From Candidatus Saccharimonadota bacterium (GTDB taxonomy: Bacteria > Patescibacteriota > Saccharimonadia > Saccharimonadales > Saccharimonadaceae), in NCBI GenBank assembly GCA_017447485.1, contig JAFSNI010000015.1:1-45904 (forward strand): a DNA stretch of 45,904 nucleotides. Direction: 5' to 3'. Below the pieces are notes generated by a model that saw only the letters and a list, made by a program, of their open reading frames with translations, ran no database searches and was not told the origin of the DNA. Of the stretch, positions 348 through 18,470 are shown piece by piece (position 1 is the first letter of the stretch; every line of letters begins with the position of its first letter). Position numbers and translations under genes: made by a program.

Positions 348-602
348 TTATATTGTATAATACAAAACTTCATTTATCAATGGTAGGTTGCGACCGCGCC
401 ACATGGCGAGAACTTCGCCATTGTTGCCGAGAGCAATGATAGTCGGGTATTCCACAATGTCGTAAGTTTCGCAAAAACTGGTATTCTCGTCTGGGTTCAT
501 GGTTTCGATTTCTTTGCCGGTTTGGCGACGAAAATTCTCAAGCCAGTCCGTTACGCTTCTTGTATAATCTTCGTTGTCCCTAAAAATACATACCACCCGC
601 AT
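348..602 (-). CDS. Small thioredoxin-fold protein without CxxC
   Basis: 84 residues. The C-terminal half (YDIVEYPTIIALGNNGEVLAMW) has the pattern of the thioredoxin cis-proline loop (V-x-x-x-P-T) followed by two strands and a short helix. The place where a CxxC redox site would be reads FRDNEDYT, so there is no dithiol; the only cysteines are at residue 5 and near residue 44. A thiol-disulfide role is therefore unlikely as written. It lies between nrdR (4-base gap) and the mscS-like gene (2-base gap) and is probably co-transcribed. Its function is unknown; the fold assignment is from pattern only. Confidence 0.6.
   Translation of the reverse strand: MRVVCIFRDNEDYTRSVTDWLENFRRQTGKEIETMNPDENTSFCETYDIVEYPTIIALGNNGEVLAMWRGRNLPLINEVLYYTI
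352..357 (-). promoter_or_regulatory. Candidate leaderless promoter -10 of the mscS-like gene
   Basis: TACAAT lies 6 bases before the ATG, inside the last codons of the upstream gene. No TG extension and no Shine-Dalgarno. The spacing matches the other leaderless candidates of the window, but co-transcription with the upstream gene is equally possible. Confidence 0.35.
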
Positions 603-606
603 AAGT

Positions 607-1056
607 TTATCTTTTTCCCTTTTGTTCTTTTAAAATGATTTCAAAATCTTCAAGAGTTTTAAATTCGCGAAAAACGCTGGCGAAACGGACGTAGGCAACT
701 TCGTTGACTTCAGCGAGAACATCAAGGACGGCTTCGCCGATTTGTTTGGAGGTGATTTGGTCAGTGCCGAAACTATATAAAATATCCGTAGCACGGTTAA
801 CGACGTTTTCAATCTCGAGTTCGGAGTTGAAAAACTTGCCAACGCTACGCTTAACGGCGAGGAGAAGCTTATCGCGATCATAGATTTCTTTGTTGCCACT
901 ACGCTTTGTGACCGTGAGTTGCGGCATCTCAATGCGCTCATAAGTGGTAAAACGACGACCGTCGGTAGCTTCGCGGCGACGGCGAATCATTTTTCCGTCC
1001 AAAGTCTCGCGACTTTCTAGAACCTTACTGTCACCGATACGGAAGTTGAAATCCAT
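607..1056 (-). CDS. nrdR: Transcriptional repressor NrdR, zinc-ribbon cysteines lost
   Basis: NrdR represses ribonucleotide reductase genes, sensing ATP/dATP through an ATP-cone. At 149 residues it is normal length. The family signature RRRREx..RRFTTYE is present near residues 25-41, and the ATP-cone follows (VTKRSGNKEIYDRDKLLLAV onward). The four zinc ligands expected at about residues 3, 6, 30 and 33 are Phe, Arg, Ala and Gly, so the DNA-binding zinc ribbon lacks its metal site. The start is well fixed: a strong AAGGAGG lies about 6 bases before the ATG, and no upstream in-frame extension carrying cysteines is present. It follows ftsZ by 9 bases. Confidence 0.9.
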   Translation of the reverse strand: MDFNFRIGDSKVLESRETLDGKMIRRRREATDGRRFTTYERIEMPQLTVTKRSGNKEIYDRDKLLLAVKRSVGKFFNSELEIENVVNRATDILYSFGTDQITSKQIGEAVLDVLAEVNEVAYVRFASVFREFKTLEDFEIILKEQKGKR

Positions 1057-1065
1057 GGACCCTCC

Positions 1066-2220
1066 TTAATCTTTTTTCTTCTTGCTCCTTAAGCGTTCGC
1101 GGAGAGACGGCGGAACGTCCATCTCATCATCGCTGGCGACTGGCTCTGGTTCTGGTTCACTCTTAATAGAATCCCACATGTTGGACTTGTTCTCGACAGC
1201 AAAATCTTTTGGCTCGGCAGTTGGAGCGCCGAGCTCCTCGGTTTGCGGCTCGGTGGCCACAGGTTCATTATAATAATCAGAGTCAAATCCGGTCGCGACC
1301 ACGGTAACGACAATTTCGTCCTCAAGTTCTGGGCGAATTGAAGCACCGAAAATAATGTTAGCATCCGGAGAAACGGCGCCAGTGATAACTTCGGCGGCTT
1401 CTTGAACTTCACTCATAGACATATCATAACCACCAGCGACACTAAAGAGCACGCCGCGGGCACCTTCGATTTTAACTTCAATCAGCGGAGATTCAACGGC
1501 TTGCTGCGCAGCGATAACGGCGCGATTTTCACCAGAAGCACGGCCGATGCCCATGAGGGCGGAGCCAGCGTTTTTCATGATAGCTTTAACATCGGCGAAG
1601 TCGAGGTTAATCAAAGAATGCTCAGTAATGAGTTCGGAAATACCCTGGACGCCTTGGCGAAGGACGTCATCGGCGATTTTGAAGGTTTCAAGAAGAGGAG
1701 TGCGAGGATCGATAGTCTGGAGTAGTCTATCGTTTGGAATTGTAATAAGGGCATCAACTTGGCGAGCGAGTTTATCAATCGCGAGGTCAGCATTGGCGCG
1801 ACGGCGAGCGCCCTCAAAAGTAAATGGCTTCGTCGCAACACCGACCGTTAAGATGTCCTTCTTGCGAGATTCTTCAGCGACGATTGGGCCAGCGCCAGAA
1901 CCAGTACCGCCGCCAGCGCCAAGCGTAATAAAGACCATATCCGCACCGTCAAGGGCTTTGTCGATTGCCTCGCGGCCTTCTTCGGCGGCTTCACGACCTT
2001 TTTCTGGGTCACCACCGGCACCAAGACCTTTACCGATATGAACTTTGACATCTGCAGAAGAATGGTGCAAAGCCTGTGCATCAGTATTAATGGCTACGAA
2101 TTCCACCCCAGTTAAGCCCACTTCTTTCATTCTTTCAACAGCGGAGCCACCGGCACCACCAACGCCCACAACTTTAATGCTTGCTTTGCTTTCCACCTCT
2201 GTCGGTTTAACTTCTGGCAT
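1066..2220 (-). CDS. ftsZ: Cell division protein FtsZ
   Basis: Tubulin-like GTPase that forms the cytokinetic ring. 384 residues, normal length. The nucleotide-binding signature GGGTGSG is at residues 103-109 and the T7 catalytic loop NLDFADV at 205-211. A variable acidic linker (about 315-365) leads to a conserved C-terminal tail, DVPPSLRERLR followed by a lysine cluster, which in the family binds FtsA. Start supported by GAGG about 8 bases upstream. It lies directly downstream of ftsA, the common division-gene order, with nrdR immediately after it. Confidence 0.97.
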   Translation of the reverse strand: MPEVKPTEVESKASIKVVGVGGAGGSAVERMKEVGLTGVEFVAINTDAQALHHSSADVKVHIGKGLGAGGDPEKGREAAEEGREAIDKALDGADMVFITLGAGGGTGSGAGPIVAEESRKKDILTVGVATKPFTFEGARRRANADLAIDKLARQVDALITIPNDRLLQTIDPRTPLLETFKIADDVLRQGVQGISELITEHSLINLDFADVKAIMKNAGSALMGIGRASGENRAVIAAQQAVESPLIEVKIEGARGVLFSVAGGYDMSMSEVQEAAEVITGAVSPDANIIFGASIRPELEDEIVVTVVATGFDSDYYNEPVATEPQTEELGAPTAEPKDFAVENKSNMWDSIKSEPEPEPVASDDEMDVPPSLRERLRSKKKKD

Positions 2221-9471: not shown

Positions 9472-9909
9472 TTAGCGAGCGTAGGCAATGTTCTGCTCCA
9501 TGGCTTGCGTTTCGAGCGCAACAAGACGCGCGGCGTCATCAATAGCAGAGTTGACACAGTGCTTGACGCGGGCGGCCTCTTCAGCCTTTTTGGCATCATT
9601 CCAGCGGTCCAAAGTGCCGACGAGATAGCCGGTGATGCGGCGAAGACGCTCAAACTTGCCCTCGTCGAAATATTCTGCATGAGCGTTAAAGTATTCTTCA
9701 GCGGCTTTTTCGCCTTTTTTCTCAGCGATAAGACGCATGCCGACTTCTACGAGGCAAGAGACGTGCATGGTTTCATATTGTTCAAAATCCGCCAGAGCGG
9801 CTTCAGCTTCCTTTTCGGAGATTTTGGCATATTGATCGAGAGATTTAACAAAACGTTTAATGTCGAAATTCTCAGCGTCGTTTGAGTTTCTGTAAATGAT
9901 TTTCTTCAT
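9472..9909 (-). CDS. Small protein with NrdD-like glycyl-radical C-terminal motif
   Basis: 145 residues from the ATG with AAGGA upstream. Residues about 88-117 read FERLRRITGYLVGTLDRWND then AKKAEEAARVKH, which closely follows the C-terminal glycyl-radical region of class III ribonucleotide reductase (R-[VI]-x-G-Y-L, W-N, G/A-K-x-x-E). The first Gly of ITGYL would be the radical site. The N-terminal part (KKIIYRNSNDAENFDIKRFVKSL) vaguely resembles a degenerate ATP-cone. The catalytic barrel and the Zn cysteines of NrdD are absent, so it cannot be a complete reductase. It may act with another subunit or as a spare radical domain (compare GrcA for pyruvate formate-lyase). The paired NrdR-box-like sites over its promoter support an RNR link. 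Function is inferred. Confidence 0.55.
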   Translation of the reverse strand: MKKIIYRNSNDAENFDIKRFVKSLDQYAKISEKEAEAALADFEQYETMHVSCLVEVGMRLIAEKKGEKAAEEYFNAHAEYFDEGKFERLRRITGYLVGTLDRWNDAKKAEEAARVKHCVNSAIDDAARLVALETQAMEQNIAYAR

Positions 9910-9963
9910 GGTTTTTCCTTGTCCGTCTGGACTTATTTTTGTTATAAGCATTACCTGAAATCT

Positions 9964-9992
9964 ATTATAGACGCTAGATGTGGTGGCGTCAA
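9964..9992 (-). promoter_or_regulatory. Promoter of the NrdD-like small gene
   Basis: TTGACG (9987-9992) and TATAAT (9964-9969) with a 17-base spacer. This is the best -35/-10 match of the window. The spacer is filled by an NrdR-box-like sequence. Confidence 0.8.
9971..9986 (+). promoter_or_regulatory. NrdR-box-like operator 1
   Basis: 16 bases, ACGCTAGATGTGGTGG, keep the core of the published NrdR box (acaCwAtATaTwGtgt): C, A, AT, T and G positions all match. It occupies the whole -35/-10 spacer of the minus-strand promoter, so binding would block RNA polymerase. Confidence 0.55.
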
Positions 9993-10002
9993 GTAGTTTT
10001 TG

Positions 10003-10018
10003 ACGCTAAATATGGAGT
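10003..10018 (+). promoter_or_regulatory. NrdR-box-like operator 2
   Basis: 16 bases, ACGCTAAATATGGAGT, in the same orientation as operator 1 and exactly 32 bp from it (about three helical turns). Known NrdR boxes come in pairs with this spacing. It lies just upstream of the -35. Confidence 0.55.
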
Positions 10019-16835: not shown

Positions 16836-18470
16836 TTAAGTTTTTTGCAAGTCGGCGATATCTTTCAAAGTTTCCAAATATTCGTCACTGTCTTCGTCGA
16901 GAGAGGCGAGTTTTTCATTCAATTCAGCGATTTTTTGTTTGTTTAGTTCCATCTCATAACGTTTCATCAGTTCGGCAGCCTCTTTTTCATAATCTAGAGC
17001 ATTAATCCCCTCGTGCTCGCGGTTAAAAACTAGTTCAAGCTCATCGATTTTAGACTCATCTTCCGGCAAATCAAAAGGAATGTCGGTTTTAACGATGCCA
17101 CCAAAAATCTTAAGAGCTAGCAAACTATCTTCAAGTTTTTTAAGGTTGTCGGATTTCAGCTCGGTTTTAGGTTTTTTGAAATGTCTGCGCGAGGCGGACT
17201 GTTCTAATTTTTTGTTCAGGCGGTCGCCTTTTTCGCGCAAGATTTCAACTTCGACGCCGAGTTTTTTAGCAACTTTTTCTTCATAACTAGCGCGTTCGAT
17301 TTCGTCTTTAACATAAGACAAAAGTTTTAGAGCGACGTCGGAATATTTTTTCTTATCTGGGGCGAGGCGGAGGTTTAAGTTTTCTTCGTATTTATTAAGG
17401 AGCCAATCAACAGCGGGGACACGCTCCTCGATGGCGGCTTGCCAGAGCTTTGGATCTTTTTGAATCAGCTCATCAGGGTCTTTGGCGCCGTGGTAGTTTG
17501 AAATGACGGTGAGATCGATGCCAAGGTCACCGGCAAGCATGATGGCGCGCTCGGTGGCTTTAATGCCAGCAGCGTCGCCGTCATAAGCGAGGCGAATGTC
17601 AGAAGTGAGGTTTGAAAGCGATTTTAAATGTTGTTCGGTCATGGCAGTACCGGAAGTTGCAACGGCTTCTTTAACGCCGGCTTGGTGGGACGAAATAACA
17701 TCCATGTTGCCTTCGACGATGACAACAAAACCGTTTCTCCTGATAGACTCTTTGGCGTTGTGAAGACCGAAAATGAAGCGAGATTTATTAAACAAAATAG
17801 TTTCGGGAGTGTTTAAGTATTTGGGTTCACCTTTATCCAGGATGCGGGCGGTGAAGCCGATGATATTGCCGGTGGTATCGATAAATGGAACCATCATGCG
17901 GCCTTTGAAGAGGTCGGTTTTGAAGCGGTTGAGGAGCCCGGCGTCATCTAGTTCCCTTTCCGAAAAGCCACGTTTTTTTAGGACTTCGAGTAGAGCTTTT
18001 CCGGAGGCAGGAGAATAGCCGATTTTAAATTCTTCGATGGTTTTTCGGACCATGTGGCGCTTGTAAAAAACGTAGTCGCGAGCATCCTTACTGCGAACGA
18101 GGCAGGCCTGGTAATATTTAGTGGCGAGAGTTAAAGCTTCTTTGGCGCGAAGTTTACGTTTAGTGACGGCGGAGTCACCACCATGGTATTTTGAGAGGTC
18201 AACGCCGGCCTGGGCGGCGAGTTTCTCCATGGCTTCGCGGAAAGAGATGCCTTCGACTTCCATGACGAAGGTGAAGATGTCGCCACCCTTGTTGGCGGAA
18301 AAATCGTGCCAAATGCCTTTTTCAGGCGAGACCATAAAGCTTGGGGTTTTGTCGACACCCCAAGGAGAGTGCCCCTTCAAAGTGCGGCCGGCACGTTTCA
18401 ACTCTACGTATTGGCCAACGACGTCCTCCACCGCGAGACGAGATTTGATTTCTTCTTTCGCGTCTTGCAT
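16836..18470 (-). CDS. dnaG: DNA primase DnaG lacking zinc-binding residues
   Basis: Makes RNA primers at the replication fork. 544 residues. The N-terminal zinc-domain fold is recognisable ([17 protein letters not shown]...KGGD), but all four ligands are replaced: Ser35, Gly38, Asp56 and Ala59 stand where Cys, His, Cys and Cys belong. The RNA-polymerase domain follows, with TOPRIM motifs [10 protein letters not shown] and AYDGDAAG. A short C-terminal helical region would bind DnaB. Total length is below the usual 580-600. It is divergent from the membrane-protein gene at 18489, with 18 bases between. Confidence 0.94.

Follow-up and report, generated by a model that had tools for sequence, protein, structure and literature searches.

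The window, a 45,904-nucleotide (45.9 kb) contig from a Candidatus Saccharimonadota bacterium, carries an nrdR gene whose product has no cysteine in any of its 149 residues. NrdR has been described as a repressor made of a Zn-ribbon and an ATP-cone, with two conserved CxxC motifs. The window protein is the only NrdR found in its genome, and it can be said with good confidence that it is a vertically inherited orthologue which lost its zinc site, most likely once, and kept its job. Most likely it is a repressor of the genes for ribonucleotide reductase (RNR), the enzyme that makes DNA building blocks, which is switched by dATP/ATP and works like any NrdR, without the metal. Saccharibacteria are ultra-small bacteria. 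Neither the window protein nor 94 relatives have a single cysteine, so under a strict definition which includes zinc it is named here a zinc-free variant descended from NrdR, one which very probably works like NrdR.

The nrdR gene and its product

The features of the nrdR locus are:
607..1056, minus strand: nrdR, encoding the cysteine-free NrdR of 149 aa (ORF and translation; PF22811, PF03477, TIGR00244)
928..1056, minus strand: putative N-terminal DNA-binding domain without zinc ligands, residues 1-43 (alignments; predicted strands 11-17, 23-29 and 35-41)
973..984, minus strand: RRRR DNA-contact motif, residues 25-28 (invariant in alignments; S. coelicolor complex, PMC9110341)
655..915, minus strand: ATP-cone, residues 48-134 (PF03477, 56.7 bits)
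1060..1067, minus strand: Shine-Dalgarno AAGGAGGG (sequence; overlaps the ftsZ stop codon)
1066..2220, minus strand: ftsZ, conserved neighbour upstream of nrdR (ORF; synteny in Cys-free and Cys-bearing relatives)
348..602, minus strand: thioredoxin-like ORF, conserved downstream neighbour, after nrdJ if that is present (weak Pfam similarity; synteny)

The gene starts at an ATG at 1056, with 9 nt separating it from ftsZ upstream, and the protein begins MDFNFRIGDSKVLESRETLDGKMIRRRREATDGRRFTTYERIE; beyond the gene lie the thioredoxin-like ORF and an mscS-like ORF. The preliminary description had the coordinates and the absence of cysteine right, and left out the strand. It read the old ligand positions 3, 6, 30 and 33 as F, R, A and G, which is what stands there, but compared with known NrdRs the window protein is one residue short on each side, so the old Cys6 aligns best with F5, not R6. 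It also took the ATP-cone and the arginine/RFTTYE signature to be intact, and indeed RRRR and RFTTYE are kept, PF03477 matches at the score given above, and the cone is present in 59/59 aligned relatives. The best named relatives are metagenome genomes of Candidatus Saccharibacteria, many of them from ruminant guts; identity to RGIG5750, from sheep ileum, is 97%. No viral relatives were found.

Although the protein misses the TIGR00244 cut-off, scoring 112.1 bits against an equivalog cut-off of 124.65 with a match that starts at profile position 10, past the first CxxC, the chance that this is an artefact (a wrong start, a frameshift, or a copy decaying beside a normal nrdR) is negligible. Upstream of the ATG there are three in-frame codons (GGS) and then a stop, and the ribosome site at 1067-1060 is of the strong AAGGAGG type. 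With a stop three codons upstream and this Shine-Dalgarno, a cysteine-bearing N-terminus is impossible, and the start is as it had first been called. The upstream stop, the ribosome site and purifying selection together rule out a missed N-terminus, a frameshift and a pseudogene, and the same sequence pattern recurs in 94 distinct proteins. The second, cysteine-bearing nrdR which might have undone the case was not found, either in the 612-kb genome of the window, which is 87% complete, or, at a relaxed threshold, in the congeners G060, G022, G026 and G163 (98-100% complete). The PF22811 profile matches the window protein at 38.1 bits, above its gathering score of 27.2, over profile positions 10-42 only.

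Distribution of cysteine-free NrdRs

The loci fetched from the order yielded 94 different Cys-free NrdRs and 59 different Cys-bearing ones, the latter tally also including E. coli; the loci from the contig profile scan are its best 80 and give no measure of frequency. Cysteine counts are all-or-none, at least 4 or 0, with no convincing intermediates and with a few exceptions that resemble fragments or wrongly chosen starts. The TIGR00244 cut-off is passed by 145 of the 199 family genomes, and 54/199 have no match above it. A minority of family genomes match TIGR00244 from profile position 1 or 2, and those that were read carry four cysteines. Apart from incomplete genomes that lack a normal TIGR00244 match, the congeners searched each have one nrdR, with a match starting past the first cysteine; this covers nearly all of them. 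Annotation based on TIGR00244 overlooks cysteine-free NrdRs.

The trait does not extend to Patescibacteria as a whole. It is clade-wide in one Saccharibacteria family, while outside the family, where 287 phylum genomes were covered, each of the 15 best-scoring loci fetched has at least 4 cysteines; separate losses of the zinc site may exist among matches scoring below those 15. The proposed zinc-free form of NrdR is supported by the comparison, with one replacement motif shared by the 94 distinct Cys-free proteins, and the sequences support its extension beyond a single gene to a clade with conserved candidate target sites.

The contigs L111, L115 and L157 are labelled Nomurabacteria or Chlamydiae, but their nrdR and ftsZ group inside Saccharibacteria, and they are probably mislabelled or misbinned. 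Many genomes of the order also have a second, divergent, Cys-bearing NrdR-like protein, called NrdR2 here (L062-L067, L199-L205). This paralogue has WRRR for RRRR, scores about 43-84 bits to TIGR00244 and lies far from RNR genes, and several of its loci show a similar ACAATATGTTG-like stretch immediately before the start codon.

Orthology and history of the zinc-site loss

The cysteine-free NrdR is the positional orthologue of the zinc-type NrdR, on the basis of shared gene order and trees. With gene names assigned by similarity (nrdJ being a class II-like RNR gene), the order in most Cys-bearing relatives is adk-map-ftsA-ftsZ-nrdR-nrdJ-trx, and in Cys-free relatives it is adk-map-ftsA-ftsZ-nrdR-trx, without nrdJ. 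The nrdJ gene is also missing at the nrdR locus of some Cys-bearing lineages. In the ftsZ tree the Cys-free genomes sit among Cys-bearing lineages, which means that the zinc site was lost rather than yet to be gained.

The number of losses was judged from several trees. Two changes are given both by a tree of the ATP-cone only (115 columns) and by the free ftsZ search, as would be seen if zinc was lost twice in parallel or the trait spread by transfer; the functional reading would be unchanged. This history seems unlikely. When the Cys-free rows were held together in the ftsZ tree the log-likelihood was higher by 19.3 (pAU 0.74), so that a single Cys-free clade is not rejected by the ftsZ data and one loss is favoured, not proven. 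The full-length NrdR tree, in which the trait columns were included, separates all Cys-free sequences from the others at a single branch with an SH-aLRT of 99, and the replacement motif is common to the Cys-free NrdRs.

Two outside causes of the loss were considered and rejected. Dependence on class III RNR does not fit, since class I/II RNR occurs in Cys-free lineages, and a Cys-bearing lineage (G119) has NrdD. Coupling to a zinc loss in the DnaG primase does not fit either. The DnaG of the window (16836-18470, minus strand) is without CHC2 zinc ligands, as are nearly all DnaGs of the order that were read (L236-L265); since this includes zinc-type NrdR lineages, the DnaG loss is an older and separate one.

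The DNA-binding domain and the old metal site

In the S. coelicolor NrdR-DNA complex the backbone is gripped by R12, R26-29 and R37, and the residues at the bases are D15 and R17 (PMC9110341). The window equivalents are K11, R25-28 and R35 for the backbone and E14 and R16 for the bases. Apart from position 11, which is either K or R, these residues do not vary in the clade alignments, and zinc-type Saccharibacteria as a rule also have Glu in place of Asp15; K/R at the first contact and Glu for Asp at the second are both conservative changes. Median dN/dS is 0.046 for the DNA-binding domain and 0.100 for the ATP-cone, from only 11 usable pairs with high dS, which suggests stronger purifying selection on the DNA-binding half.

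With the zinc ligands gone, and zinc reported to enhance DNA binding by E. coli NrdR (PMC4898720), the N-terminal domain might no longer bind DNA at all. The protein would then be a dATP/ATP-sensing ATP-cone whose target might be RNR itself or, by way of the ftsZ operon, cell division, and another regulator would read the boxes described below. This is quite improbable given that the contact residues are invariant or nearly so, that the domain changes more slowly in evolution than the ATP-cone does, and that boxes are kept in genomes in which searches found no further NrdR. The cysteine-free NrdR appears still to work because both its DNA-contact residues and its target sites are preserved.

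The old metal site has been filled in a regular way. In a set of 62 Cys-free sequences with domains of the same length, selected via the DG motif, 56 have F, Y, I or L in place of the old Cys6 and 61 have S, T or A in place of the old Cys31. The old Cys34 has become the Gly of a DG turn, and a separate alignment of N-terminal domains shows this Gly in every sequence and the Asp in nearly every one. The N-terminus has been remodelled to IGDS. From these patterns we infer that the metal cage was replaced by a hydrophobic residue at the old Cys6 and a DG turn at the second CxxC. It is very improbable that the domain still holds a metal through other ligands, such as Asp/Glu or the backbone: the acidic residues D9, D20 and D32 are conserved, but D20-G21 and D32-G33 resemble turn motifs, D20 is away from the old metal site, and the domain has no conserved Cys or His.

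Structure prediction, which had been suggested as a check, was consistent with an NrdR fold of the whole chain. The whole-chain AlphaFold2 model (59 aligned sequences) has a pLDDT of 90.3 and the three strands listed above, and it matches the solved E. coli (9fxk) and S. coelicolor (7p37) NrdRs with Z 15.6, although AlphaFold may recreate the family fold from homology. The domain-alone model (43 Cys-free sequences) has the same three strands at pLDDT 86, but as an isolated 46-residue domain its match to NrdR (VIA-align, Z 4.6) is not clearly better than that to an unrelated chain (4.3).

NrdR boxes and putative RNR targets

Boxes were scanned for with the NrdR-box consensus, which we take to be acaCwAtATaTwGtgt. 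The features at the putative target in the window are:
10003..10018, minus strand: candidate NrdR box 1, ACTCCATATTTAGCGT (box scan; 32 bp from box 2)
9971..9986, minus strand: candidate NrdR box 2, CCACCACATCTAGCGT (box scan; fills the 17-bp promoter spacer)
9964..9992, minus strand: putative promoter TTGACG-17-TATAAT around box 2 (sequence; spacer analysis)
9472..9951, minus strand: stand-alone glycyl-radical domain protein, putative NrdR target (Pfam NRDD 532-562, 31.1 bits)

The pair at 9971-10018 is the best in the whole window, with a score of 37 and a maximum of 36 in 40 shuffles, and it sits just before the glycyl-radical ORF, whose homologues start at an internal Met, residue 15. Box pairs stand in front of 10/10 fetched homologues of this gene. 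No convincing pair was found within the window at ftsA, ftsZ or nrdR, and control of these three genes by NrdR was rejected on that ground.

The class I/II RNR large subunit (PF02867) is absent from all 14 tested genomes of the window's genus, which might suggest an orphan NrdR without an RNR, but all 14 have the class III NrdD. Tandem boxes 31-33 bp apart lie upstream of nrdD at 16/18 loci (p = 0.003); for the remaining two the script chose another ORF, and a plain scan found the pairs. One of the 18 loci, L224 (G119), is of a Cys-bearing NrdR lineage, and the other 17 are Cys-free. In 7 Cys-free genomes with class I/II RNR, tandem boxes also precede the RNR genes (p 0.003-0.023), and in most Cys-bearing genomes they precede nrdR-nrdJ. 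Box positions carry a mean information of 1.30-1.62 bits, compared with 0.40-0.88 for the linker and flanks. In 24 of 26 promoters (elements with at least 9/12 matches) one box fills the 16-18 bp spacer between -35 and -10, a placement which reads as the layout of a repressor site.

The class III RNR itself appears to be split, between the window's 9472-9951 (minus strand) and G000:C5:9994-11769 (L216), and both nrdD and the gene of the small glycyl-radical protein have candidate NrdR boxes. The main NrdD is without its C-terminal glycyl-radical part (profile 530-562) in G000, G001, G003, G026, G060 and G219, and a separate small protein carries the glycyl-radical piece (RRITGYLVGTL). A full-length NrdD occurs together with the small protein in G016, G017, G027, G034 and G070, and a full-length NrdD only in G005, G022, G032 and G163. 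The variants look like a series towards a two-piece enzyme.

Proposed mechanism and its meaning

The zinc site would have disappeared, most likely in one event, from the ancestor of a single Saccharibacteria clade, the CxxC...CxxC cage giving way to a small, three-stranded, presumably metal-free domain with a hydrophobic residue at Cys6 and a tight DG turn. The Arg/Glu DNA-contact surface is retained, as the sequence shows. As in the NrdR family, the ATP-cone would sense dATP/ATP and switch between oligomers. When dATP is plentiful a tetramer would bind a pair of NrdR boxes spaced by about three helical turns, usually with one box of the pair within the -35/-10 spacer, and would turn off the RNR genes. 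The putative targets are the class III nrdD and the stand-alone glycyl-radical protein in the window's genus and, in the rest of the clade, class I/II RNR genes.

No paper on NrdR with Saccharibacteria or Patescibacteria, and none on a metal-free NrdR variant, was found in the open-access literature searched. It is likely that a large Saccharibacteria clade has as its fixed form an NrdR which is metal-free by nature, which binds canonical paired boxes and which represses RNR, including a split class III RNR in the window's genus. If so, zinc is dispensable for the NrdR DNA-binding domain and its DNA-bending mode, and in the window's genus NrdR controls a class III RNR with a separately made glycyl-radical domain. 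A natural, conserved, cysteine-free NrdR whose targets are of the usual kind uncouples the surface that reads DNA from the metal believed to form it, and lets the role of zinc be probed, whether in fold, in dimerisation, or in redox and zinc sensing. It would be a compact natural case of a small metal-built DNA-binding domain made without metal.

Comparison with known systems

With the NrdRs of S. coelicolor (7p37, 7p3f, 7p3q) and E. coli (9fxk, 9fvr, 9fzf, 9gex) the cysteine-free NrdR shares the domain order, the ATP-cone, RRRR, RFTT(Y/F)E, the DNA-contact residues, the predicted fold, and paired boxes about three turns apart before RNR genes. It differs from them in having no zinc ligands; in having one residue fewer before the second turn, and in many members also within it; in the hydrophobic residue at Cys6, the small residue at Cys31 and the Gly at Cys34; and in Glu for Asp15, which is common to zinc-type Saccharibacteria. 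The zinc-type Saccharibacteria NrdR (L145, L033, L012) has the same locus after ftsZ, E-R plus RRRR, and the same box type, but it keeps its four cysteines and is mostly followed by nrdJ. NrdR2 is similarly a zinc-ribbon and ATP-cone-like protein, but it has CxxC motifs, its own WRRR and another location, and was not found in the window's genus.

A role kept without zinc by a protein with a zinc site is also known from DksA2 and from alternative ribosomal proteins. Those, however, are second copies for times of zinc scarcity, whereas the zinc-free NrdR is a fixed form and, unlike such stand-ins, the only NrdR found in the window's genus.
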